From Dehalobacter sp. DCA (GTDB lineage Bacteria > Bacillota > Desulfitobacteriia > Desulfitobacteriales > Syntrophobotulaceae), in NCBI RefSeq assembly GCF_000305775.1, contig NC_018866.1, positions 2,375,001 to 2,439,000 on the forward strand: a stretch of DNA of 64,000 nucleotides, written 5' to 3'. A program made the translations under genes and the position numbers. The number at the start of each line of letters is the position of its first letter. Within the stretch, counting starts at the first letter, position 1. This document shows positions 5,680-43,403 of the stretch, piece after piece. A model generated the notes under the pieces. That model was not told the DNA's origin. It did no database searches and worked only from the letters and a program-made list of their open reading frames with translations.

Positions 5680-6519
5680 ATGACTGCTCAAGGTATCGAA
5701 TTCGTCAAGGTCACAAAGCATTATATAGATTACTCTCAAGGGAAAACACCTGCGCTGAAAGATATCTCCTTGTCGATCAGGAAGGGCGAATATGTCGGTT
5801 TGCTTGGGATGAATGGTTCGGGAAAATCTACCCTGGCCAAACTATTAAATGGCCTGCTTAAACCAACGGATGGAAAGGTCTTTATCAATGGGCTTGATAC
5901 GGCAAACATTGAACAACTGCCTGAAATCCGCAGACTCGTCGGTATGGTTTTTCAAAACCCCGATAATCAATTAATCAGTCCTGTTATTGAGGAAGAAATT
6001 GCTTTTGGCCCTGAAAATTTAGGACTGCCAGTTCCAGAGATCAATCGCCGGATCAATTGGGCACTTCAGGTGTGCGGCCTCGAAGACAAAAGGCATCATG
6101 CACCGCATCTGCTTTCAGGCGGACAAAAACAAAGGGTGGCTCTGGCTTCGGCCTTGGCGATGCTGCCTGAATACCTCGTTCTTGATGAGCCGACTTCGAT
6201 GCTGGATCCGGCAGGCAGGAAGGAACTGCTTGAACAGCTGCGGGTCTTAAATAAGCAGGAAGACATGACCATCCTGATCATCAGCCATAATCCAGAGGAT
6301 TTGGTCCAGGCAGACAGGCTAATTGTTCTGGATCACGGATCAATCTTTTTACAGGGGACCCCAAGGGAAGTCTATGCCAACGCCAAATTGGCAGAACTGG
6401 GACTGGATACCCCCGCGGTTTACCAATTGATCAACCAATTGGGATCAAACGGATATCCTGTTCCCGAAAACGTCAAATCAGTCCGGGAGTTGGTGGATTA
6501 TCTATGCCTGCAGTTGTAG
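5680..6519 (+). CDS. ecfA1: Energy-coupling factor ATPase EcfA1
   Basis: A 279-aa ABC ATPase of the ECF type. Visible motifs are Walker A GMNGSGKST, the Q-loop VFQNPDNQ (the NPDNQ form is typical of EcfA), signature LLSGGQKQRVALAS, Walker B YLVLDEPTSM and the switch His in IIISHNPEDL. It would pair with EcfA2 and power EcfT. Its 3' end overlaps ecfA2 by 16 bp, consistent with coupled translation. Confidence 0.93.
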   Translation: MTAQGIEFVKVTKHYIDYSQGKTPALKDISLSIRKGEYVGLLGMNGSGKSTLAKLLNGLLKPTDGKVFINGLDTANIEQLPEIRRLVGMVFQNPDNQLISPVIEEEIAFGPENLGLPVPEINRRINWALQVCGLEDKRHHAPHLLSGGQKQRVALASALAMLPEYLVLDEPTSMLDPAGRKELLEQLRVLNKQEDMTILIISHNPEDLVQADRLIVLDHGSIFLQGTPREVYANAKLAELGLDTPAVYQLINQLGSNGYPVPENVKSVRELVDYLCLQL

Positions 6520-7439: not shown

Positions 7440-7605
7440 TTCTCTTTAACTGGCCATTTTTCATATGGTCTTTCTTCATACGCATAAAGGTGGCATCATG
7501 ATCCGTCTTGAAGTAACTATTTCTTTCTTCCAGTATAAGCTCTTGCTGTTCATATTTCTGCATTCTTGGACCCGGTCTCTCTTCATCCGATTTCTTGGCC
7601 AATCT
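7440..7605 (-). pseudogene. Remnant of an IS1182-family transposase
   Basis: The reading frame contains MQKYEQQELILEERNSYF and KTDHDATFMRMKKDHMKNGQ, nearly identical to the middle of the intact transposase at 41449-43053. A short piece (AKKSDEE) from about 20 residues upstream is joined directly to it, so there is an internal deletion. Both the catalytic N-terminal and C-terminal regions are gone. No function is expected. Confidence 0.85.
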
Positions 7606-7711
7606 CTCGGCCCCTTTTTACAGGTGCGCCGGCGGCAAAAGTAAAATAAATCGATAGAATACTCCTTTAGGGGTGGTTGTGTTTTGTCCATTTTCCAAAC
7701 CTGAACATATC

Positions 7712-7742: not shown

Positions 7743-7758
7743 GTTTCAGGAGGAATGA

Positions 7759-9978
7759 ATGCAGAACATGTTTTTTGAACGGGAAGACTGGAAATTATTC
7801 AGAAATATGGAAACCTTGCCCCAAAAAGCGGGGGTGCCGAGAAGTAAATTATCCATGCTGGTTTGCAAGGAACTCACGGATAATGCGCTGGATCTGGGCG
7901 GCGATTGTGAAATCGGTTATGAGGGCGATTTTTTCTATGTTAAGGATCACGGCAGCGGCCTGGATCCGGAATTGTTTTCCATCAACAGGCCGCTACGGTC
8001 CTCCAAGTATTTAAGACTGCCAACCCGAGGGGCATTGGGTAACGGTCTGCGCGTGGTAGCCGGGGCGGTAGTGGCGTCGGGCGGCGAACTCTATGTTTCA
8101 ACCCGAGGCCAAAATTATAAAATCCATTTTCAAAATGACGGTACAGCCTTCCCGGAGAGCTTAAGCGATTATCACGACGCCGGGACAAAGATCAGATTTA
8201 CTTTGGGCGGAATGCCTATTAATTCAAGCTGGGCCAGTCTGGCAATGGAATATGCCCAAGGTGAAACCTACCGGGGAAAGACCTCGCCCTATTGGTATAC
8301 CAGTGAAAACTTTTTTGAATTGTTTCAGTCCTATAGCGGATCGGTTCGGGAACTCATCACGCAGTTCGACGGTTGTACCGGTGGGAAAGCCGGGAAGATA
8401 GCCGCAGAATATACCAAGATGTCCGCCGCAGCCTTGGAGTTTGACGAGACGGAAGCGCTTTTGGCTGAGCTCCGAGCAGCGGTAAAAAATGTGAGTCCCG
8501 AGAGGCTGGGGCGGATCGGCAAGCTGGATGGGTACAGCTGCTATTGTAAATCAGCCGGCACCTTTAAGGCCAGGACCGTCAAAGGGAAACACGACGCGGA
8601 AATAGCGTTTGTCCTTGAAGTGTACGCGATCCCCTCCGATACGCCCCATATAACGGTACTACTCAATAAATCCCCTGTGACCGGCAATGTCAATATCGAC
8701 TACAACAAAAATTTGCTCAGTATTTTCGGCTGCGGTTTAATCCTATGTGTAAAAGCCAAACCTGCCGTTATTCTGATCAATATCATAACGCCCTATATCC
8801 CGATTGTGACAGATGGGAAAGAACCGGATCTCTCGATCATCAGCGACACCATCGCAGAAAGCATTCAAAAGGCGGTCAGCAGAGCCCAAAAATCCCTGCC
8901 GGGCGATGTGGTGGAGCGAAAGAAATCTCAGAAAGAAGTCGTTACGGCATGCTTGGAACAAGCCATTGCTAAAGCCAGCGGCAACGGCGAATACCGTTTC
9001 AGCCTGCGTCAGCTTTATTATGCCGTCCGGCCGTATGTGATCAAGGAAAGCGGCAAAGAACCGGATTACGCTTATTTCTGCACGGAATTGATCAGCAGTT
9101 ATGAAGCACAGCACGGTGACATTCCGCTGATGTACCGGGATGAGCGGGGGACGTTGTATCATCCCCACTCAGGCCAGGATATTCCTATCGGCACGATTGC
9201 GGTGGAAAACTATCAGAAGCCCGTCTGGACGTTCAATAAAATCCTGTATATTGAAAAAGAAGGCTTCTTCAATGTGCTCAAAGAAAAGAAAATCCCGGAG
9301 AAATATGATATGGCTTTACTCACCAGCAAAGGTTATGCCAGCCGGGCGGTCAAGGATTTGCTGGATACGCTCGGGGAGAATTCGGAGGAAGAGATAGCTT
9401 TTTTCTGCATTCATGACGCGGACGCATATGGCACGACGATCTATGATACCCTGCAAAATGAAACCAAAGCCAGGCCCGGCAGAAAAGTGAAGATCATCAA
9501 TCTGGGGCTGGACCCGAAAGAAGCCATCAGCATGGGGCTGGAAATCGAAAAGGCAGGAAAAACAGGCCGCAGGAAGGGCGTAGCCAGCTATATTGATCCC
9601 GAGTGGGAGAGCTGGCTGCAGAACTACAGAGTGGAACTGAACGCCATGAGTACGCCGCAGTTTCTTGCCTGGCTGGAAGGGAAAATCAGGCTTTACGATA
9701 AAGGCAAAGTGATACCGCCCGAAAGTACCATGCTGGAGAGCCTGGACCATAGCCTTCAGGATAAACTCGGCCAAAAGCTTGCAGCGGAAATCTTGGAACA
9801 AAATCACTATGCTGATCAGGTCACTCAAGCAGTCCGGCAAGTTAAAGAACGCTGCGGCGACAGCCAAATTCGGTTAGCTGAGACAGTGCAGGCGGAGCTT
9901 AAGAAGGAACCGGTCAATCTATGGAAGGATGTCATTAAGGCCGTGTCTGAGGATATGATTAAAAATTTTCGTTTTTAA
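7759..9978 (+). CDS. Fused type IIB topoisomerase-like protein (TopoVI-B-like ATPase + Spo11/TopoVI-A-like)
   Basis: A 739-aa protein with two recognisable halves. Residues about 1-370 resemble a GHKL ATPase of the topoisomerase VI B type: ELTDNALD N-box (E38, N42), VKDHGSGLD (D63), RGALGNGLRVV (G91-G96). Residues about 385-739 resemble TopoVI-A/Spo11: a winged-helix segment SLRQLYYAV with the Tyr pair Y420/Y421, then a TOPRIM-like fold with YIEKEGFF (E499/E501) and HDADAYG (D553, D555). The B-then-A order in one chain is that of topoisomerase VIII-like proteins, known mostly from plasmids and integrated elements, where DNA cleavage has been shown for some. The start has AGGAGG. There is no operon partner. 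It sits between an IS1182 end and a structured repeat and is richer in G+C than its flanks. A DNA-cleaving or element-maintenance role is inference; a defence role is possible but unsupported. Confidence 0.78.
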   Translation: MQNMFFEREDWKLFRNMETLPQKAGVPRSKLSMLVCKELTDNALDLGGDCEIGYEGDFFYVKDHGSGLDPELFSINRPLRSSKYLRLPTRGALGNGLRVVAGAVVASGGELYVSTRGQNYKIHFQNDGTAFPESLSDYHDAGTKIRFTLGGMPINSSWASLAMEYAQGETYRGKTSPYWYTSENFFELFQSYSGSVRELITQFDGCTGGKAGKIAAEYTKMSAAALEFDETEALLAELRAAVKNVSPERLGRIGKLDGYSCYCKSAGTFKARTVKGKHDAEIAFVLEVYAIPSDTPHITVLLNKSPVTGNVNIDYNKNLLSIFGCGLILCVKAKPAVILINIITPYIPIVTDGKEPDLSIISDTIAESIQKAVSRAQKSLPGDVVERKKSQKEVVTACLEQAIAKASGNGEYRFSLRQLYYAVRPYVIKESGKEPDYAYFCTELISSYEAQHGDIPLMYRDERGTLYHPHSGQDIPIGTIAVENYQKPVWTFNKILYIEKEGFFNVLKEKKIPEKYDMALLTSKGYASRAVKDLLDTLGENSEEEIAFFCIHDADAYGTTIYDTLQNETKARPGRKVKIINLGLDPKEAISMGLEIEKAGKTGRRKGVASYIDPEWESWLQNYRVELNAMSTPQFLAWLEGKIRLYDKGKVIPPESTMLESLDHSLQDKLGQKLAAEILEQNHYADQVTQAVRQVKERCGDSQIRLAETVQAELKKEPVNLWKDVIKAVSEDMIKNFRF

Positions 9979-10029
9979 GATTTGACTACACTAGTGTAAT
10001 TAATCTTAAAACAACCGAATTTTTAAACA

Positions 10030-10304
10030 GGGGCTGTGATGACCCTCAGAGAAAACCAGACTTGCACAGATTCACAAGCGGACGTTAGTGGCGGCAGCGT
10101 AAAGAAACCAGAAAACCGCAGCATTAAAACATGCCAACGGTTAGCATACAGAAACAGCGGGGTTTTGGCATGTTAGCGGGAGATTTCTGTTTTTAGCTGC
10201 GAGAACGAGGGAACGGTGGATCTGTGCAAGGCTGCATCACCTAAGAAAGAAAAGACAGTTCTGATTGACGTCTTTAGTTTGGGACTAAGTTGTGATACAG
10301 CCCC
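10030..10304. repeat. Long structured intergenic repeat, copy 1
   Basis: About 248 bp (10057-10304) are shared with 43152-43403, upstream of the intact IS1182-type transposase. The repeat folds into nested arms: CTTGCACAGATTCAC with GTGGATCTGTGCAAG, and AAAACATGCCAAC with GTTTTGGCATGTT, among others. This copy is bounded by inverted GGGGCTGT (10030-10037) and ACAGCCCC (10297-10304), so it may be a MITE-like or IS-end structure. No coding frame is seen. It fills most of the gap 9979-10471. Confidence 0.65.
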
Positions 10305-10392
10305 ATGCTGCAAAAAACCCTAAAGACAATCTCTCGGGGGTCAAAAGGCTTGACGATATATTTGTCAACTCCCAGTTGGAAGCCAAGTGCTT
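10305..10392 (-). pseudogene. Fragment of an OmpR-type response regulator
   Basis: On the minus strand the frame reads KALGFQLGVDKYIVKPFDPR followed by EIVFRV. This is the end of a receiver domain, with the conserved Lys-Pro pair and the PREL-like start of the linker of OmpR-family regulators. The frame runs straight into the structured repeat at 10304 and no start or N-terminal half is present. It is a relic cut by the repeat or element end. Confidence 0.7.
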
Positions 10393-10471
10393 TATTGTAC
10401 CTTAGTTTGCATGATAACAATACAATTGTATAATTATGATGAGATATTAAGAACTTCTTGCTGTTTAAGCC

Positions 10472-10690
10472 TCATTTCCATGGGTTTATTCCCTTAAATA
10501 TGGGGTGAGAAAAACTCATTGCTTTCCTGCGTAAATACTGGGGCTCTACAACATGGATGTCAGTAAAAAGTTCAGACGATATTCCCCTTTCCTGGTCTTT
10601 TTTTATCCGTTCCTCGAGATACGCAATTTCTTCTGTCGCCCGGATTTTTTCCATCTCGATCACAGCGTCTAAAATATGCTCCTTGATCAT
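10472..10690 (-). CDS. Small hypothetical protein, 72 aa
   Basis: A short open frame, rich in charged residues at first (MEKIRATEEIAYLEERIKKD, likely helical or coiled), ending FKGINPWK. I do not recognise a family. No convincing ribosome site precedes the ATG at 10690. It lies between the relic-rich region and the germination operon and could itself be the tail of a lost gene. Treat as doubtful. Confidence 0.35.
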   Translation of the reverse strand: MIKEHILDAVIEMEKIRATEEIAYLEERIKKDQERGISSELFTDIHVVEPQYLRRKAMSFSHPIFKGINPWK

Positions 10691-10830
10691 TCTCTTCGCT
10701 GCTTCTTCCTTACATTCCTACAATATTCAGTTAAAATCTAAGTGGTACGGTATAAAAATATTTGAAAAGGAAATTCTAGTAAAAATATTAATTATAACTT
10801 AGGGGTGACTGAAAGATATTTGGGAGCGGT

Positions 10831-12441
10831 ATGTTTAAAAAACTGTTGAAGAGCGCTCTAGGCTTTAGCGGCAAAAGAGACTCTGGTAAGATAACTTCCC
10901 GACAACCGGGAGAAAAGCGGCCCCTCTCTGCAGACTATGATGATAATTTACAGACTTTACGGCAAGTTTTCGACCAGTGTTTTGATATTCTCTTCCGCGA
11001 ATTTTTCATTAATGCCGATATGCCTCTACGGGCTTTTATTGTTTATGTAACCGGATTAACCAACCATGAAATGGTAAATGATCACTTATTGAAGAGTATC
11101 ATGCAGGAGACGGCTAATTTACCATCATCCGTGCATCTGTCCAAGGCCAATGCACAGCAAGTCATTCAGGAACGTTTAATCAATTTGGACGAAACCAGCA
11201 CGACTACAGATTTAATTGAACTAGTCAAGAAAGTTTTAGAAGGCAATACCGTCCTGCTTCTGGACGGATCGGCTACTGCGATTATTGCCGGTGTACGGGG
11301 TGTAGAAAGTAGGGCAATCAACGAGCCTGACAGCGAGCCTGGGGTGAGGGGACCGAAAGACGGATTTGTGGAAGCTCTCGACACAAACATGAGTTTAATC
11401 CGACGCCGGATAAAAACCAGCCGTCTCAAAGCGGAAATCTTCGAGACAGGGCTGTTGACAAAGACTAAACTGGCAGTATGTTACATCAAAGGGATCGCCA
11501 ATGATAAAGTTGTGCAAGAGGTGAAGCAGCGGATTGGCCGGATTAATATTGATAGTGTACTCAGTGGCAACCAGATTGAAGAATTAATTATGGATGAGGC
11601 GTTCTCTTTATTCCCCCTTGTGCAGTATACCGAGCGTCCGGACAAAGCAGCGGCTTCCTTATTGGAAGGACGGGTTGTTATCTTAGTGGATAACTCACCA
11701 ATGCCCCTGATTGTTCCTGTAACGTTTATTTCTCTGCTCCAGGCTGCCGAGGATTATTACAATAACGCGGTGTTCGCCACTTCAGTCCGGCTTTTGCGAT
11801 TTATTGCCTTGAACATTGCGTTATTGCTGCCGGCCTTAACTGTGGCAGCCTTCTCATTTCACCAGGAGTTGCTGCCAACAGCGTTAATAAATACTGTCGC
11901 TGGTGCTCGGCAAGGTTTACCTCTGCCAATCGTCTTAGAAATTTTGATGATTGAATTCGCCTTTGAACTCTTGCGCGAAGCCGGAGTACGCCTGCCCAAG
12001 ACGATTGGTCAAGCCATCAGCACTGTCGGTGGTTTGGTCATTGGGCAGGCGGCAGTAAACGCTGGCCTGGTCTCACCAATCTCGGTCATTGTTGTGGCGA
12101 CTACAGCCATCGCTTCATTCACAATTCCGAATTATGCTGCAGGTACTGCGCTGAGAATTTTGCGGTTTGTTTTGATTATTCTTGCAGGTTTTCTCGGCGG
12201 AGTGGGAATCATCTCCGGTTTGATGGTTATTCTATTTCATCTCTGTAGCTTACGGTCTTTCGGTATCCCCTACTTGTCACCTATTGCTCCCCTAAGCCTG
12301 GGTGACTTAAAGGACACCATGGTGCGTGCGCCCTGGTGGGCTATGCTCAGGCGGCCATGGATGTCCGTCAGCAATGAGCCGGTCAGGCAGGACCCTGATC
12401 AAGGTCCGCAAAAACCGGATAAGGGAGGGCAAACGTCATAA
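10831..12441 (+). CDS. gerA: Spore germination receptor subunit A (GerA family)
   Basis: A 536-aa protein of the GerAA/GerKA family, part of the inner-membrane receptor that senses nutrients in dormant spores. It has a large soluble N-terminal domain with family motifs (DCSATAIIAGVRGVESRAI-like region, here LLLDGSATAIIAG and VRGPKDGFVEAL) and a C-terminal block of about five membrane helices with PLPIVLEILMIEFAFELLRE. It starts an operon with gerB and gerC; the stop overlaps the proposed gerB start. The presence of this operon indicates a spore-forming ancestry or ability. Confidence 0.94.
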   Translation: MFKKLLKSALGFSGKRDSGKITSRQPGEKRPLSADYDDNLQTLRQVFDQCFDILFREFFINADMPLRAFIVYVTGLTNHEMVNDHLLKSIMQETANLPSSVHLSKANAQQVIQERLINLDETSTTTDLIELVKKVLEGNTVLLLDGSATAIIAGVRGVESRAINEPDSEPGVRGPKDGFVEALDTNMSLIRRRIKTSRLKAEIFETGLLTKTKLAVCYIKGIANDKVVQEVKQRIGRINIDSVLSGNQIEELIMDEAFSLFPLVQYTERPDKAAASLLEGRVVILVDNSPMPLIVPVTFISLLQAAEDYYNNAVFATSVRLLRFIALNIALLLPALTVAAFSFHQELLPTALINTVAGARQGLPLPIVLEILMIEFAFELLREAGVRLPKTIGQAISTVGGLVIGQAAVNAGLVSPISVIVVATTAIASFTIPNYAAGTALRILRFVLIILAGFLGGVGIISGLMVILFHLCSLRSFGIPYLSPIAPLSLGDLKDTMVRAPWWAMLRRPWMSVSNEPVRQDPDQGPQKPDKGGQTS

Positions 12442-13535
12442 ATACGGAAAAGCTTTCAAGTACGCAGATTGCTGTCCTGCTGTACATAATCATCATGATT
12501 TCAGCTCTCCTGTTGGTGCCCGGGCTGACAGCCGAAAAGGCGAAACAATCCGCCTGGATCGCGGTCGGTTTAGCCTCACTCCCCGGTTTTTTTTGCTTAT
12601 GGATTGTTTGGAAATTGGGTAAAAGGTTTCCAAACAATACTTTGCCTGAATATGCAGAAATCATCCTGGGCAAAGCCTTAGGCAAGGTTGTAGGCGGAGC
12701 CTATATATTATTTTTTCTTTTGGTTAATATTCTATCCGTATGTGAGTTTTCCAAATTCCTGACAGTCTGCTTTATGCCGCAAACCCCGGCAATGGTTTTT
12801 AATGTCATTCTTGTCCTCATCGGGGCTTATGCGGCATCTAGAGGAATTGAGGTAATTGCCCGTGCAGCTCAATTTGTCTTTCCTCTATTCGTGATTTCTT
12901 TACTTATTCTATTTGTATCTGTATTACCCGTCGTGAAATTAGGAAGACTACTACCTTTTCTGGAGGGTGGGATTGAACCTGTGATTTGGGGATCTGTCCC
13001 CTCCATCATCGTGTATGGTGAGGTTATTATATTGGCTGTTCTGCTTTCCATGGTCAACAAGCCCGAGGAAGTGAAGCGCAAAGGAGCTTTTGCCTTATTA
13101 GCAGCGGCAATTTTTCTCTCGGCAGGTATGATGTTCACCTTGATGATATTTGGGCCGAACCTTTCTGGGGAGCTGTTATTTCCTTTTTGGTTCCTCAGCA
13201 AATCTATTGAATTTAGCAGTTACCTGCAACGTGTAGAGGGCATCATTGCGCTCCTTTGGATGGTTGGAATCATCATTAAAATTGCAGTTCTATATTATCT
13301 GGTATGTTTTGCAACAGCCAAAACCCTTGGTCTCAAAAGTTATAACCCAGTTGTTTATCCAATGGCGCTTGTCTATATCCCCGCGGCAACTTTTCTATTT
13401 CGTAATACAGCAGAATTCCGTCATTTTCTTGAATTGTACTGGCCGTATTTAGGATTTATTTTCGAACTTGTGTTGCCTTTGATTCTTTTGTTAGTAGCCG
13501 TAATCAGAAAAAAGCATAGGAGAGTTAGGCAATGA
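12438..13535 (+). CDS. gerB: Spore germination receptor subunit B (GerB family), possible AUA start
   Basis: A GerAB/YndE-like permease of the APC type with about ten membrane helices. The family N-terminus (EKLSSTQIAVLLYIII before MISALLLVPG) is encoded upstream of the first ATG at 12495. In that frame, between the stop at 12420 and 12495, there is no ATG, GTG or TTG. The codon in the expected place is ATA (12438), which overlaps the gerA stop as ATAA and sits 8 nt after AAGGGAGGG. I therefore propose initiation at ATA, or a recent ATG-to-ATA change; initiation at 12495 would remove most of helix 1. The 3' end overlaps gerC by ATGA. Confidence 0.85.
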   Translation: MNTEKLSSTQIAVLLYIIIMISALLLVPGLTAEKAKQSAWIAVGLASLPGFFCLWIVWKLGKRFPNNTLPEYAEIILGKALGKVVGGAYILFFLLVNILSVCEFSKFLTVCFMPQTPAMVFNVILVLIGAYAASRGIEVIARAAQFVFPLFVISLLILFVSVLPVVKLGRLLPFLEGGIEPVIWGSVPSIIVYGEVIILAVLLSMVNKPEEVKRKGAFALLAAAIFLSAGMMFTLMIFGPNLSGELLFPFWFLSKSIEFSSYLQRVEGIIALLWMVGIIIKIAVLYYLVCFATAKTLGLKSYNPVVYPMALVYIPAATFLFRNTAEFRHFLELYWPYLGFIFELVLPLILLLVAVIRKKHRRVRQ

Positions 13536-14692
13536 AAAAAAATTACCGTATTTTAGGCCTATTCATATTGATTATCTTACAGTCTGTTATAAGCACCGGC
13601 TGTTGGAGCAGTAAGGAAGTTGAAAGCCTTGCCGTTGTCACACTAATGGGATTGGACTATACGAATGAAAATGGCAGCGACATGTGGACAATATCTGCAA
13701 CAATCTTAAATCCACTCGGCCAGGATAAAGTGGGAGAGCAATCAAGCGGAAAAGGTAATCAGGAAACACTATTGGTAGGTACCGGAAGGACTATAGATGA
13801 GACTATTTCAGCATTTTCTGCCCATTCATCTCGTACACCGTTTTACGGACATATTAGTGCTTTTATCATTGGTGAGAAGACCGCCAAGGAAAAAATGTGC
13901 GAATTCACAGAGGCCGCAATACGGTATTGGGGAAACCGTCCAAGAACATTAATAATCGTAACAGAGGGAAAAGCTCTTGAGGTATTGCAAGCGGGACCAG
14001 CAGTCGATAAGCTGCTCTCAAAAGAATTGAAGGAATTGGGTATGAACAAAGCGTTAGCTACCGGTTATTCCTACGGTGTAACTTTGACTGATTTTGCGGA
14101 TTGGTTAAAAAGTCCCGACAGGGATCCGGTAGCAACACTCGTCAATGTCATTCCTTCGGAAGTGCCCGGATTGAACCAGCAAAATCTGATGAAGGGATTA
14201 GCTGTTTTCCAAGGGGGTAGACTCATAGGTTGGCTGAATAAAGACGAAACCACAGGATATTTATTAATAACACAAAATATAAATGGGTATATTCCGTTAA
14301 CGTATATAAAAGATAATAAATTATTCTCATATTACATTAGTACTGCAAAAAGTAAAATTCTGCCGGTAGTAACTGGTGATAAAATATTTTACCGCGTACA
14401 AATTAAAGTTATGGGTGGGATTGCTGAAAATTCAGGACTTAGACTGAATTCAGAAGATATTAGAGCACTTGAAAATATTATCGAAGACAGGCTGCGGGAT
14501 CTTTCCACGCAGGCAGTTGATAAGGCCAAGGAATACAATTCAGATTTTCTTGGTTTTACAGAAAAACTCCATCGTACTAACCTCTCAGCATGGCAGACGC
14601 TAGGACCGGACTGGCGGAAAGTTTTTCGTACAGCGGAAGTAGAAATCGTGGTCGATGCTAAGATCGTCCAAACCGGGATGATGGGGGAATAA
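13532..14692 (+). CDS. gerC: Spore germination lipoprotein, Ger(x)C family
   Basis: A 386-aa lipoprotein. The signal peptide (RILGLFILIILQSVI) ends in the lipobox STGC, with Cys24 as the likely lipidated residue, and CWSSKEVESLAVV is the usual GerC N-terminus (Cys-Trp then Glu-Leu/Ser-Leu). GerC anchors to the membrane and joins GerA and GerB in the germinant receptor. It starts inside the gerB stop (ATGA). Nothing suggests which germinant is sensed. Confidence 0.93.
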   Translation: MKKNYRILGLFILIILQSVISTGCWSSKEVESLAVVTLMGLDYTNENGSDMWTISATILNPLGQDKVGEQSSGKGNQETLLVGTGRTIDETISAFSAHSSRTPFYGHISAFIIGEKTAKEKMCEFTEAAIRYWGNRPRTLIIVTEGKALEVLQAGPAVDKLLSKELKELGMNKALATGYSYGVTLTDFADWLKSPDRDPVATLVNVIPSEVPGLNQQNLMKGLAVFQGGRLIGWLNKDETTGYLLITQNINGYIPLTYIKDNKLFSYYISTAKSKILPVVTGDKIFYRVQIKVMGGIAENSGLRLNSEDIRALENIIEDRLRDLSTQAVDKAKEYNSDFLGFTEKLHRTNLSAWQTLGPDWRKVFRTAEVEIVVDAKIVQTGMMGE

Positions 14693-14710: not shown

Positions 14711-17700
14711 TTAAATCTCTACGCTTCCTTCGAATACCTTTTCCGGTTTTCCTGTCATATAGACTGTCTCATCTGTATATTTAACGACTAGGTCGCCGCC
14801 TTTTAGCTTCACCAGAATATGCTGGTCTTTTTGGCAGAAACCGTTCAGTACTGCAGCAACGACAGCCGCGCAGGCGCTGGTACCGGCCGCAAGTGTTTCG
14901 CCGTTGCCGCGTTCCCAGACCCGCATTTTCAAGGTGTTTTGATCGATCATCGTAACAAATTCCACATTGACTCTTTCCGGAAATAACGGAGAATATTCGA
15001 AGGCCGGTCCTTCAGTATCCATCTGAATGCTTTCCTGGTTCTCCACAAAAATCACACTATGCGGATTCCCCATGGACACACAGGTGATGCGGTAATCGCG
15101 ACCAGCAATTGTAACCGACTGGTTCACGATAACCTCTCCCGGCAATTTAACCGGAATCTTCTGAGGTTCCAGCTCCGCCGGCCCCATATCCACGCAGACC
15201 GAATCGACTTTCCCGTTTTGGATATAGAGTTTCAGTTTTTTAGTCCCGCTCAAGGTTTCAATCGAAATCCGATCCTTAACGATGATCTCGTTGTCGTACA
15301 GATATTTCCCAATGCATGTCAGTGCATTGCCGCTCATTTTGCTCTCGCTGCCATCTAGATTGAACATCTGCATCCTCGCATCAGCTTTGTCGGACGGACA
15401 GATCAGCACAATCCCATCCCCGCCGATACCATAGTGCCTATCGGATAAATAAACACTCAGGGATTCTGGGCTGACGATTTGTTGATCGAAGCAGTTGAAA
15501 TAGATATAATCGTTGCCGCAGGACTGCATTTTTGTAAAGGTAAGCTGCCGCCGTTCGCTGCGCATATGGTTGATGTCCACAAGCTCCGTGTTGTTCTGGG
15601 AATACCGGCTCTTCAGACTGTTGGCTAACGCATTGGCGGTATCCAGCGAGGTCAGGCACGGAATTGCTGTCTCAACTGCCTTGCGGCGGATTTTGACACT
15701 GTCCAGGCCTGGCAGCCTGCCTTTAGCAGAAGTCGAAATAATGTAATGGATCTTGCCGCTTTCCAGCAGCGTTTGGATATTGTCATGCTCTGATTCATGA
15801 ATCTTCTTGACCGAAATTACCTGCAGCCCCGCTTGCTCCAGCACTTTGGCCGTTCCGCCGGTCGCATAGAGTTTAAAGCCCAGCTCGCTGTATTTCCTGG
15901 CGATATCAACCATCTCCGGCTTATCGCCGTTGCGAACCGTAATTAAAACGCCACCCTGCTTCACCATCTTATACCCGGCAGCCACAAGTCCCTTATAAAG
16001 CGCCTCGGCCAGCGATTTGCCGATACCCAGCACCTCGCCCGTCGACTTCATCTCCGGGCCCAGCTGCACATCGACGTCGATCAGTTTTTCAAACGAAAAT
16101 ACCGGAACCTTGACCGCGACATAAGGTGGGGTTTTATACAGCCCTGTGCCATAGCCCATATCGGTCAGTTTTTCGCCAAGCATCGCCCGGGTCGCGAGGT
16201 CAACCATCGGCACGCCGGTCACTTTGCTGATATACGGGATCGTCCTTGAGGAACGCGGGTTCACTTCAATCACGTAGATTTCTCCGGCATGAACGACATA
16301 CTGAATATTGACCAGCCCCTGGGTGTTTAAGGCCAGGGCCAATTTTCTGGAATAGTCAATGACCCGTTCCGTCAGTTCTCCGCTTAAGTTCCAGGCGGGA
16401 TAGACTGCAATCGAATCACCGGAATGGATACCTGCCCGCTCAATATGCTCCATGATCCCGGGGATCAGAATCTCTTCACCGTCACAGATCGCATCGACCT
16501 CGATTTCAATACCTGACAGGTATTTATCGATCAGAACGGGATTTTCGATGTTGTAAGTCAGGATAATGTCCATGTATTCACAGATATCCTGGTCACTAAA
16601 CGCAATAATCATATTCTGGCCACCCAGAACATAGGAAGGCCGCATCAGTACCGGATAGCCGAGCTTATTCGCCGCCTGCAGCGCTTCATCGGTGTTCATC
16701 ACGGTATGTCCCTGAGGCCGTTTAATGGAGAGTCGTTCCAACAAAGCGTCAAACCGTTCCCTGTCTTCGGCCGCATCAATGCTGTCGGCCGGTGTGCCCA
16801 GAATCCGTACCCCCTGGGCTTCCAAGAACTTCGTCAGCTTAATGGCCGTCTGTCCGCCAAAAGCCACGACGACGCCATAGGGCTGCTCCGTATGAATCAC
16901 ATTCAGAACGTCCTCATTGGTCAGCGGTTCAAAATACAGGCGGTCAGCCGTGTCAAAATCGGTCGAGACGGTCTCCGGGTTATTGTTGACAATCACGACC
17001 TCATAGCCTGCTTTTTTCAGCGCCCAGACACAATGTACGGAAGCATAGTCAAACTCGATCCCCTGACCGATTCGAATCGGTCCGGATCCAAAGACAATAA
17101 TTGTCTTCTTGCTGCTGTTCCTGGCTTTAATAAACTGCTCAGCCTCATTGGCTTCATCATACGTCGAGTAAAAATACGGAGTCTCTGCCTCAAATTCAGC
17201 TGCGCAGGTATCGACCATTTTGTAAGAAGCCCAGCGTTTCTGATAGATCCCCTGCGCGATCCCCTGTTCAATCCTGCAGCCCGAAAGCCGTTCAATCACT
17301 TTATCAGGATACCCAAGTTTCTTGGCCTCTTCGTACAGCTCCTGCGTTAGAGGTCCGACGGCCAGCTCTTTCTCCAAAGCTGTAAGGTGAGCCAGTTTGT
17401 ATAAGAACCAGAGGTCGATCTTGGTGATCTCATGAATCAATTCGCAAGAAATGCCCCTCTGCAACGCTTCAAATATCACAAAAAGCCGTTCATCGTTGCA
17501 CACCGCAATCAGCTGTTCAATCTCGGCATCCGTCAGTTTCTTGAGTTTGGGCAGGTTTAAGCTGTCCAGGGAAATCTCCGCTCCCCTGACCGCTTTCATA
17601 ATGGCCTGCTCAAAGTTCACACCGATGGCCATCACTTCGCCGGTTGCTTTCATCTGCGTGCCCAGTGTGCGTTTCGCGTAAACAAATTTATCAAACGGCC

Positions 17701-18778
17701 ACTTGGGCAGTTTCACCACGACATAATCCAGTGCCGGTTCAAAACAGGCATAGGTCTTCCCAGTAACGGCGTTTTTAATCTCATCGAGCGTATAGCCGAC
17801 CGCAATTTTCGCGGCGACTTTAGCAATCGGATATCCGGTCGCCTTGGAGGCCAGAGCCGAGGAACGGGATACCCTCGGATTCACCTCAATGACGGCATAG
17901 TCAAAGCTGTCCGGATGCAGCGCAAACTGGCAGTTACAGCCGCCTTCCACTTCCAGGGCCGTAATGATATTCAAGGCAGCCGAGCGCAGCATTTGATATT
18001 CTTTGTCCGAAAGCGTAACGGCCGGCGCGATAACGATGCTATCCCCGGTATGAACCCCGACCGGATCGAAATTCTCCATACTGCAGACGGTAATAACATT
18101 CCCCACCCGGTCCCGCATCACTTCAAACTCAATCTCTTTCCACCCGGAAATACATTTTTCAATTAGGACCTGGGTAATCGGTGAAAGCCTCAGACCGTTG
18201 GCCGCAATTTCCTGCAGCACGGTTTCATTATAGGCAATCCCCCCGCCTGTTCCTCCCAGCGTAAAGGCCGGACGGACAATGACCGGATAGGAGATCTCCT
18301 CCGCAAAGGCGAGGGCAGCAGGGACATCCGTCACGACCAGAGAAGGGATGACAGGCTCGCTGATCGCTGCCATGGTATCCTTAAACATCTGCCGGTCTTC
18401 AGCTTTATCGATAGTTACCGGATTTGCGCCTAACAGCTTGACACCTTGCTTTTCTAGAAATCCTTCTTTGGCAAGCTGCATGGAAAGTGTCAGGCCGGTC
18501 TGACCTCCTAACGTAGATAAAATGCTGTCCGGTCTTTCCTTGATGATGACTCTTTTGATGGTCTCCAACGTTAACGGCTCGATGTAAATTTGATCGGCCA
18601 TTGCGTTATCCGTCATGATCGTAGCTGGATTGGAGTTGATCAGAACGACTTCCAGCCCCTCTTCTTTCAAGGCCCTGCACGCCTGGGTCCCCGCGTAATC
18701 AAATTCAGCAGCCTGCCCGATGACGATCGGACCTGAGCCAATGACCAGTACTTTTTTTATTGTTTTATTTAACGGCAT
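14711..18778 (-). CDS. carB: Carbamoyl-phosphate synthase large chain fused to a DapF-like domain without catalytic cysteines
   Basis: Residues 1 to about 1071 are a full CarB: two ATP-grasp synthetase halves ([17 protein letters not shown] at the start, [17 protein letters not shown] in the second half) and a C-terminal MGS-like allosteric domain ([16 protein letters not shown]). It makes carbamoyl phosphate for arginine and pyrimidine synthesis with CarA. From about residue 1072 ([20 protein letters not shown]) the chain continues without a stop into a complete diaminopimelate-epimerase fold of about 284 aa. Both catalytic cysteines of DapF are replaced: MSGNALTC has Ser1149 in place of the Cys of CGN, and [10 protein letters not shown] has Ala1298 in place of the second Cys. 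Epimerase activity is therefore unlikely; a regulatory or structural role is inference. A weak internal ATG at residue 1072 has no good ribosome site. It overlaps carA by 10 bp. Confidence 0.92.
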
Positions 18779-19932
18779 GTTGAGCAGTCCTTCCTCATCA
18801 AATCAATAAATTGATCAAATAAATAGCTGGTATCCAAGGGTCCTGCCGAAGCTTCCGGATGAAACTGCGCCGAAAAAGCAGGCATATTCAGATACTCAAT
18901 TCCTTCGCAAGTCCCGTCATTGGCATTCTGAAAACGCATGCAGGCATGGGTTGGAAGACTGTCAGCGACGACTGCATAGCCATGGTTTTGGCTTGTAATA
19001 TAGACTCGGCCAGTCTTCAGGTCCTTCACGGGCTGATTGGCACCCCGGTGTCCGTATTTCAGTTTGGAAGTTTTGGCACCCTGCGCCAGGGCCAACAGCT
19101 GGTGGCCGAGGCAGATCCCAAAGATCGGTAGGCCGGATGCCGATAGCTTCGCCAGTTCTTCGATAATCACCGGATTGTCGGCCGGATCGCCCGGCCCGTT
19201 GGAAAGCATGATCCCATCCGGCTTCAGATTAAGGATACTTTCAGCTATTGCCTCCGCAGACACCGTAATGACTTCACAGCCGCGTTTGATGAGCTCGCGG
19301 CGGATATTCTCCTTTGCACCAAAATCCCATAAGACTACCCGATATTTGCCTGAAACTTCTTTGGTACCCGTTGTATCTCCGGCAACTGTTGTGTCCTTAG
19401 CTTTATCTGTTTTCCGCCCTGCGACTACGTCTCCTACAGGGATAGTTTTCCTGGCCGATACTTTCTGGACAGCATCCGTAATTTTATACTGATTAATCTC
19501 TGCCAGATCTTTTTCAAGATTGTCCAGGGTTGCGGTGATTTTGGCGTTCATTACGCCGACCTCGCGGATGATCTTGGTGAGTTCCCGGGTGTCAACCCCA
19601 TAAACCCCGACAATATTCTGTGCTCTTAAAAAAGCGTCAAGCTCACCCTCACAGCGAAAGTTGGAAGGAACTTGACACCACTCCCGGACAACATAGGCTT
19701 TCAATTTCGGGGAATCATTTTCAAAATCGTCCGGAATAATCCCATAATTTCCGATCAAAGGGAACGTCTGAACCACAATCTGCCCGTAATAGCTCGGGTC
19801 AGTCAGGGTTTCTAGATATCCGGTCATTGCAGTAGTAAAGACAATCTCACCGACTGCCTCTCCTGCTGCCCCGAAAGGCTTCCCTTTAAAAACCTGGCCA
19901 TTGGCCAGGATAATATACACATTCTGCTGCAC
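18769..19932 (-). CDS. carA: Carbamoyl-phosphate synthase small chain
   Basis: A 387-aa glutamine amidotransferase subunit that delivers ammonia to CarB. It has the N-terminal CPSase domain ([19 protein letters not shown]) and the class I GATase triad: Cys in [12 protein letters not shown], and His and Glu in QFHPEAS. Between the two domains, at about residues 170-195, there is a Thr/Lys/Asp-rich linker ([19 protein letters not shown]) longer than usual. It is upstream of carB and overlaps it by 10 bp, so the two are co-translated. Confidence 0.95.
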
Positions 19933-41448: not shown

Positions 41449-43053
41449 CTATCCAGTGATCAACGCCATTTTTCTCATATTATGAGCGATGCAATGTAAT
41501 CCCCACTCAATTTTAACCTTTTCTAGCCCTTTTAACAGGAATCTTCGCATACCGTGATTCCCTTTAATGTCTCCAAAGACGCTTTCAACCTCGACCGGCC
41601 TCAAGCTCCTCATGCGCAAACCTTCTTCTGAACACAAATTCCTGCGGGCCTGTTCTTTATAGGCATTCAGTTTGCGATTGACATATATTCTTCTGTTAGC
41701 GTATGGATCGGATGACTTCACGCACTGGTTCCGATGAGGACACCCGGAACAATTCAGGCATTCATAGATTCGGATCAAACTCCTATAGCCATTGTCACTT
41801 TTTTGGTGCCGCTCGTATAAGAAAATGAGTGTTCTCCCATAACCGCAGATATATTCATCATTTTCATGGTCATAGGTGAAGTTCTGTGGTTTCGTTATGT
41901 CTTCTTTCCATTTCTTACTGGCTTCTTTGTGGAAGGTATTATATTTGACATAAGACACAAGCTTTTTCTCCTGCAGATAGTCGTAATTTTCTTCGCTGCC
42001 ATAGCCGGCATCGGCAATAATATTCTTTGGTAATTCCCCATGCAGGAGCGTTTTTAATTCTTCCAGGTGATCCTTCATACAGCTGGTATCGCCCGGTCTC
42101 TGATGAACACTGTAACCGACCACAAACTGGTTCTCCGTCCCGATCTGGACATTGTAACCTGGCTTTAACTGACCGTTTTTCATATGGTCTTCTTTCATTC
42201 GCATAAAGGTGGCATCGTGATCTGTCTTGGAGTAACTGTTTCTTTCTTCCAGGATCAGTTCTTGCTGTTCATATTTCTGCATTCTTGGCAGATAATCTTT
42301 CGTAAGGGTGTTTCTTGTTTTCTTTAACTTTTTGGTTTCAGCATCTACTGTCTCTTCTTCCGATTTCTTAGCCAGTCTCTCGTCAATTTTCCTTACGGCT
42401 TCTTCAATAGCCTCTGAGTCAATGGGCTTGCCATTGCCTAGCTCTTCTAAATCACTGTCGCCGTATTCCGCATTTTCTTCTTCATTGATCTGATCGATTT
42501 CTTTAAATAATTCCCGGCATTTCTCCCTTAACGCTTCTTTATAGCGCTTCGTGGATTTGCCCCATACCCAACTGTATTTATTGGCATTGGCCTCAATTTT
42601 TGTCCCGTCTAAAAAATAATTTTCCAGCTTGATGTATTTTTCTTTGACTAAGAGTTCAATAACTTCAGCAAATACTTCTAGAATAACCTCTTTCATCCGT
42701 TCACTCCGGAAGCGGTTAACTGACATGAAATCCGGCTGATTGCCGCCGCACAGCCACATATACATAATATTTTCACGGGCCGCTTTTGCTATCCGGCGGC
42801 ATGAAAAAACCCTGTCCGTATACGCATAAACCAATAACTTGGTCATCATGACAGGGTGAAAGCTGGAACGGCCGCCTCCAGGATATTTGGCAAACAAGGG
42901 TTCGAGATTCATGCGATCGATAGCACGATTCACAACTCGGACGACATGGTTTTGAGGAATCAGGCTGTCGATGCTTAACGGCAGTGTTTGTTGTTCCTGC
43001 ACATAAGGTTTAAATACTTTCTTGGTATGTACTTTCTGCCCTTTCTTAGACAT
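41449..43053 (-). CDS. IS1182-family transposase
   Basis: A 534-aa DDE transposase with an N-terminal DUF772-like part (LPLSIDSLIPQNHVVRVVNR) and catalytic residues in YFLDGTKIEANANKY (Asp), IIADAGYGSEEN (Asp) and VESVFGDIKGNHGMRRF (Glu). A Cys group (CLNCSGCPHRNQC) lies before the C-terminal catalytic block. The frame is complete. The middle of this protein is the parent of the remnant at 7440-7605. Confidence 0.93.
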   Translation of the reverse strand: MSKKGQKVHTKKVFKPYVQEQQTLPLSIDSLIPQNHVVRVVNRAIDRMNLEPLFAKYPGGGRSSFHPVMMTKLLVYAYTDRVFSCRRIAKAARENIMYMWLCGGNQPDFMSVNRFRSERMKEVILEVFAEVIELLVKEKYIKLENYFLDGTKIEANANKYSWVWGKSTKRYKEALREKCRELFKEIDQINEEENAEYGDSDLEELGNGKPIDSEAIEEAVRKIDERLAKKSEEETVDAETKKLKKTRNTLTKDYLPRMQKYEQQELILEERNSYSKTDHDATFMRMKEDHMKNGQLKPGYNVQIGTENQFVVGYSVHQRPGDTSCMKDHLEELKTLLHGELPKNIIADAGYGSEENYDYLQEKKLVSYVKYNTFHKEASKKWKEDITKPQNFTYDHENDEYICGYGRTLIFLYERHQKSDNGYRSLIRIYECLNCSGCPHRNQCVKSSDPYANRRIYVNRKLNAYKEQARRNLCSEEGLRMRSLRPVEVESVFGDIKGNHGMRRFLLKGLEKVKIEWGLHCIAHNMRKMALITG

Positions 43054-43151
43054 TCAAATACCTCCAAATATGGCAATATTTATATCCATAGACATTATAC
43101 CACATTCACGTCAAAATATCTCCCTATATCTGCTGATTTCTTCAAATATTG

Positions 43152-43403
43152 CAGACTTGCACAGATTCACAAGCGGACGTTAGTGGCAGCAGCGTTAAAA
43201 AACAGAAATCCGCAGCGTTAAAACATGCCAACGGTTAACTTGCAGTAAACAGCGGGGTTTTGGCATGTTAGCGAGGGTTTCTGTTTTTAGCTGCGAGAAC
43301 GGGGGAGCGGTGGACTGTGCGAGTCTGCACTACCCCAAAAAGAAAAGACGCCATTTTTTTAAATTGACGTCTTTCGCTTGGGGCTAAGTTGTGATACAGC
43401 CCC
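43152..43403. repeat. Long structured intergenic repeat, copy 2
   Basis: This matches 10057-10304. The arms pair more regularly here: CAGACTTGCACAG with CTGTGCGAGTCTG, AAAAACAGAAA with TTTCTGTTTTT, and AAAACATGCCAAC with GGTTTTGGCATGTT, giving a nested hairpin of over 150 nt. It ends in GACGTC-paired and GGGGCTAAG...CAGCCCC segments. It is non-coding and lies upstream of the transposase. Confidence 0.65.

Follow-up and report, generated by a model that had tools for sequence, protein, structure and literature searches.

Topoisomerase VIII (Topo VIII), in its 2014 description, is said to be the smallest known type IIB topoisomerase. Enzymes of this kind are mostly homodimeric, carry a short C-terminal extension and are found mainly on mobile elements (PMC8185306). 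The Topo VIII of a Paenibacillus polymyxa plasmid has been tested biochemically and displays Mg2+-dependent relaxation, cleavage alone was observed for the Ammonifex enzyme, and the tested proteins are weakly active, many being in "variable states of inactivation"; a review grades the cellular role of Topo VIII as unclear (PMC7614492).

The gene considered here lies in a 64,000-nucleotide stretch of DNA from Dehalobacter sp. DCA (NC_018866.1, positions 2,375,001 to 2,439,000; hereafter "the window"), whose genome is 3.07 Mb in a single contig. Read from the sequence and the list of open reading frames, it is a single, intact frame of 739 codons for amino acids, beginning with an ATG at 7759 and ending with a stop codon at 9976-9978. 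Its parts, in window coordinates, are as follows.

7748..7753, plus strand: Shine-Dalgarno sequence AGGAGG upstream of the ATG, read from the sequence
7759..9978, plus strand: topoisomerase VIII gene, single chain with the B half before the A half, 739 aa (Toprim match; 46% identity to the pPPM1a Topo VIII)
7780..8916, plus strand: B half, residues 8-386, with GHKL ATPase, H2TH-like helical stretch and transducer (VIA-align, profile match)
8923..9696, plus strand: A half, residues 389-646, with winged helix/CAP and Toprim (VIA-align, Pfam PF21180)
9019..9021, plus strand: codon of Tyr421, the predicted DNA-cleaving tyrosine (invariant; aligned with S. shibatae Top6A Tyr106)
9253..9423, plus strand: Toprim acids E499 (9253-9255), D553 (9415-9417) and D555 (9421-9423), all invariant
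9697..9975, plus strand: C-terminal helical extension, residues 647-739 (model helices past the Top6A match)

The original prediction had described a 739-residue frame with GHKL motifs followed by a tyrosine-bearing winged helix and TOPRIM acids, and both frame and motif order were confirmed; the proposed Topo VIII-like fusion of B and A was borne out by sequence, fold and tree. The protein is a new member of the known Topo VIII family, and the suggestion of "something new" finds no support at the family level. It is 46% identical over 99% of its length to the tested plasmid pPPM1a protein of P. polymyxa M1 (WP_014600290.1), which is included in the same trees. It has the B-first A/B fusion, the GHKL motifs, a transducer with the switch lysine K354, the winged-helix tyrosine Y421, the Toprim glutamate and DxD (E499, D553, D555), and a short C-terminal extension (residues 647-739) beyond the Top6A match. 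Topo VI is recognized by separate A and B subunits; here there is one frame. As to mobile carriage, relatives occur on plasmids and in proviruses, and the Dehalobacter copy is a fixed chromosomal gene in insertion sequence (IS) debris.

In the B half the ATP-binding motifs read E38..N42, D63xG65xG67 and G91xxG94xG96, and the transducer lysine K354 sits in an invariant DGK motif; in the A half, R417-Q-L-Y-Y421 is followed by E499, D553 and D555. Every residue numbered in these motifs is invariant in alignments of 11 and 13 full-length relatives, and HATPase_c is matched by 11 of the 13. Two Pseudomonas plasmid relatives have Phe at position 420, and in S. shibatae Top6A the counterpart of Y421 in the alignment is Y106. 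Y421 is therefore the predicted nucleophile, and of the tyrosine pair put forward earlier Y421 stands as the predicted catalytic residue and Y420 does not. The catalytic tyrosine of M. mazei is likewise numbered Y106 (PMC11302465, PMC13040014).

Pfam places TOP6A-Spo11_Toprim (PF21180) on residues 495-630 with E=3.5e-12, and its transducer match is weak for the 739-aa protein. A family profile built from 13 relatives and searched against solved structures matched Top6B with the first half (2q2e_B, 1.1e-9) and Top6A with the second (1d3y_A, 3.8e-5), and aligned residues 198-257 with Top6B 252-310, which we take to be the H2TH region. An AlphaFold2 model from 13 sequences has a mean pLDDT of 81 and a pTM of 0.52; at that pTM and with that number of sequences, the mutual orientation of the modeled B and A halves is not reliable. 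Top Foldseek matches to the model were all Topo VI-B. VIA-align gave Z 22.8 to Top6B 1mu5 over 353 residues (model residues 8-386) and Z 16.2 to Top6A 1d3y over 241 residues (389-646); within the A half it also matched Spo11 (8urq_A, Z 12.8) and, over residues 460-644, JetD (Z 12.3). A missing transducer, or a missing TopoVI-A 5Y-CAP/TOPRIM arrangement, had been named as grounds for abandoning the identification, and in these VIA-align comparisons both folds are present.

The Topo VIII gene is situated downstream of ecfT-ecfA-ecfA2, and the same order after ecfA2 recurs in three congeners (G003, G004 and G005), with protein identity of 95-96%. Pieces of an IS lie on both sides of the gene, and a hairpin spans its 3' end.

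7444..7609, minus strand: left-hand remains of an IS1182-type element, fragments of its transposase gene (90% identity with the intact copy, 42163-42382)
9958..10030, plus strand: long imperfect hairpin across the stop codon, CTAG at the apex, terminator-like (fold z = -3.7)
10057..10304, minus strand: remains of the right end of that IS, including a 19-nt inverted repeat (86% identity with the intact copy, 43152-43403)

Both remnants keep the relative orientation that they have in the intact copy (41449-43403). The "IS end" and the "structured repeat" of the original prediction both derive from a single IS1182-type element. All four genomes retain the first 46 nt, or more, of the right piece, which places the IS there before the species split; G003 is without the left piece. 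The gene does lie inside an IS wreck, as an "IS-bounded island" would have it, but the locus is an old, fixed chromosomal one in the genus and not a fresh cargo island. Nor is "plasmid maintenance cargo" supported for the Dehalobacter copy, no plasmid genes being seen beside it.

Outside the window, the genome holds about five more copies, or close relatives, of the intact IS1182-type element (DUF772, DDE_Tnp_1_6; 41449-43403, minus strand). The G003 alignment jumps from 10103 to 14474, and the gerKA/KB/KC-like spore-germination genes that adjoin the Topo VIII gene (window 10831-14692) are absent from that place in G003. In the 1355-aa product of window 14711-18778 (minus strand), a carbamoyl-phosphate synthase large chain is joined to a diaminopimelate epimerase domain; a CarA gene (18769-19932) adjoins it. 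The fusion protein is approximately 56% identical to the ordinary CarB of the same genus, and carB was rejected as a vertical yardstick, as the window's copy is a divergent paralogue. Further along, about seven reductive-dehalogenase-like proteins, with a TAT-like signal and two ferredoxin-type cysteine motifs, are encoded in a cluster at 30053-60611, along with three NosR/RdhC-like membrane proteins, a CRP-like regulator and transposases.

The 3' hairpin is an imperfect palindrome of about 70 nt that holds the stop codon, and RNAalifold returned a weak consensus for it. Related, near-perfect palindromes of about 70 nt, also with a CTAG centre, follow unrelated genes in Desulfosporosinus (L115-L134; loci in G042, G061 and G038), and more than 15 copies, nearly all on one strand, occupy a 360-kb stretch of G042 (2.43-2.79 Mb). 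A G+C-rich stem preceded by A-tracts and followed by T-tracts gives the dispersed palindromes the look of bidirectional terminators. Since the palindrome also follows unrelated genes, the shared right ends of Topo VIII units are no proof of transposition, and solo 3'-end "remnants" were rejected as transposon traces, being copies of this palindrome after unrelated genes. At one site (G003:C1:2056439-2057746), about 1.2 kb of other DNA interrupts the palindrome in the middle, an arrangement resembling an IS insertion.

The Topo VIII gene is under strong purifying selection. By the Nei-Gojobori method, congeners compared with one another give a dN/dS of 0.13-0.20; for copies at 80-81% identity it is 0.17-0.18. 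In wider comparisons dN falls to a minimum around the tyrosine and Toprim regions, and the gene has no stop or frameshift across four genomes of the genus. Another congener (G006) and a family member (G010) hold fragments only, and so the gene is dispensable. Matches were found in 19 of 83 genomes of the class (4 of 27 genera) and in 5 of 398 genomes drawn evenly from the phylum. Intact copies in Desulfosporosinus, a Gracilibacter MAG and G027 are in unrelated contexts, comparison of the contexts of intact copies gave no shared neighbour and no conserved partner gene pointing to a pathway, and many genomes have remnants alone. In the tree, Desulfosporosinus copies form two clades, of which one joins the copies of the window's genus, a pattern that suggests either horizontal transfer or ancient duplication with losses, as both fit. 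A 394-nt derivative (43 nt, Topo VIII residues 644-739 and the hairpin) is present twice in G034 (L062 and L063; G034:C34), the copies being 98% identical with unrelated flanks and one of them following an IS3-type orfB fragment.

Relatives are also carried by proviruses. A search of IMG/VR with the family profile identified seven Topo VIII loci; a scan of IMG/VR with the single 739-aa protein gave no match, nor did 50,697 records of a phage genome collection. The provirus proteins are 51-56% (L135/L088, L136/L089, L137/L091) and 57% (L008) identical to the Dehalobacter protein. Their genes are part of a module (L135, L136, L137 and L008; L136:9983-20636 and L008:3066-19891) comprised of a helicase, a ParB-methyltransferase fusion, small terminase, tyrosine integrase, large terminase and a large polymerase-like protein of RdRP fold, the last shown for L008 (PF05183, E=3.3e-20). 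L136 additionally has portal, scaffold and major capsid genes. Tailed-phage-like proviruses carry the nearest outgroup of the Dehalobacter Topo VIII. For phages, reviews name only Mini-A (PMC7614492), so full-length Topo VIII in tailed proviruses, absent from those reviews, may be new. One origin of the Topo VIII family, to judge from these provirus relatives, may be a role in the replication or packaging of phages.

Could the protein cut DNA for some purpose other than strand passage? A DNA-cleaving defence gene had been proposed. In such a defence or anti-plasmid gene the TopoVI-A-like module would serve as the nuclease, as Wadjet JetD and Gabija GajA do; TopoVI-like Toprim modules are the nuclease of both systems (PMC13040014), and JetD is among the structural matches noted above. 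The JetD profile match is weak, however (E=0.013), the ATPase and transducer are complete, the catalytic tyrosine is kept, and the gene is solitary: JetABC-type partners were not seen beside it, no defence system was present among ten neighbours of its relatives, and the simplest reading of a DndA/SspA-like match next to L004 is a cysteine desulfurase. The proposal is accordingly without support, and we consider it very improbable. We are equally disinclined to see a Spo11-style regulated break-maker that initiates recombination or the integration of mobile DNA. The A half does match Spo11, the family is often mobile, and the Ammonifex enzyme showed cleavage alone (PMC7614492), but the B half retains its ATP-binding motifs and the stretch aligned with the Top6B H2TH, unlike most Spo11 partner proteins, and the closest tested homologue, that of pPPM1a, relaxes DNA.

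The history of the gene admits two further readings, each of which we hold to be extremely improbable. An inert mobile-element relic, open by chance, might be expected from the many remnants in sister genomes and from the position of the gene within IS debris; the dN/dS values within the genus and the absence of any stop or frameshift in four genomes argue against it. The other is a single-gene mobile unit with defined ends, to which units of about 2.35 kb with reproducible ends in unrelated contexts, several copies and remnants per genome, and the duplicated 394-nt derivative of G034 would all point. Yet neither an empty site nor a target duplication emerged from flank searches, the right end common to the units is a dispersed palindrome that also stands after unrelated genes, and L002 and G034x5 represent the same old site, so that the left ends record fewer events.

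The Dehalobacter protein is most likely a chromosomally settled, homodimeric, single-chain type IIB topoisomerase of the Topo VIII family that acts by ATP-gated strand passage. Dimerization, the coupling of strand passage to ATP and the geometry of the cut are inferred by homology. Upon ATP binding, two chains would clamp via their GHKL domains, and the transducer would drive the winged helices toward DNA. The two Tyr421 residues would then cut the duplex, presumably with the 2-nt stagger of Topo VI, the required Mg2+ being bound by the partner chain's Toprim acids; another duplex would pass through the break before it is resealed. With less assurance, we suggest that this clade received the gene horizontally from plasmids or phages as mobile carriers, that it may have inserted into an IS1182 copy ahead of speciation within the genus, and that it could now be retained for relaxing or decatenating DNA beside gyrase.

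A search for the GyrB/ParE C-terminal domain (PF00986) gave one match per genome in five genomes of the genus; the matched gene is gyrB-like and, where the genome is closed, lies near position 6000. This suggests from gene content that the genus has no topoisomerase IV. With one such match per genome a host decatenation role for Topo VIII is possible. Such a role is not essential, as G006 lacks both a second PF00986 gene and an intact Topo VIII. We therefore offer only tentatively, and think rather unlikely, the stronger proposal that a Topo VIII lineage left its mobile carriers and is now a vertically inherited, selected host topoisomerase (for decatenation or positive-supercoil relief) in a genus that seems to have gyrase and no topoisomerase IV. 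A fixed, selected gene at one site, together with a sister genome that has lost it, makes the role testable by comparing natural carriers with non-carriers.

Compared with Topo VI (Top6A/Top6B; 2q2e, 2zbk, 1mu5, 1d3y), the Dehalobacter protein has the same GHKL, H2TH-like, transducer, winged-helix and Toprim folds, but in one chain instead of two subunits and at about 16-19% identity; it lacks the Top6B C-terminal domain between the halves and has extra C-terminal helices. Spo11 and the Wadjet JetD and Gabija proteins share the CAP/Toprim cleavage module (PMC13040014) but are without a fused, complete ATPase-transducer half. The provirus enzymes (L136, L137, L135 and L008) have the same architecture at 51-57% identity and are embedded in a phage module, whereas the Dehalobacter copy is not. 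The pPPM1a Topo VIII is likewise a single chain of B then A with all catalytic residues and the same tail; it is plasmid-borne, whereas the Dehalobacter gene is chromosomal, at one locus in four congeners.
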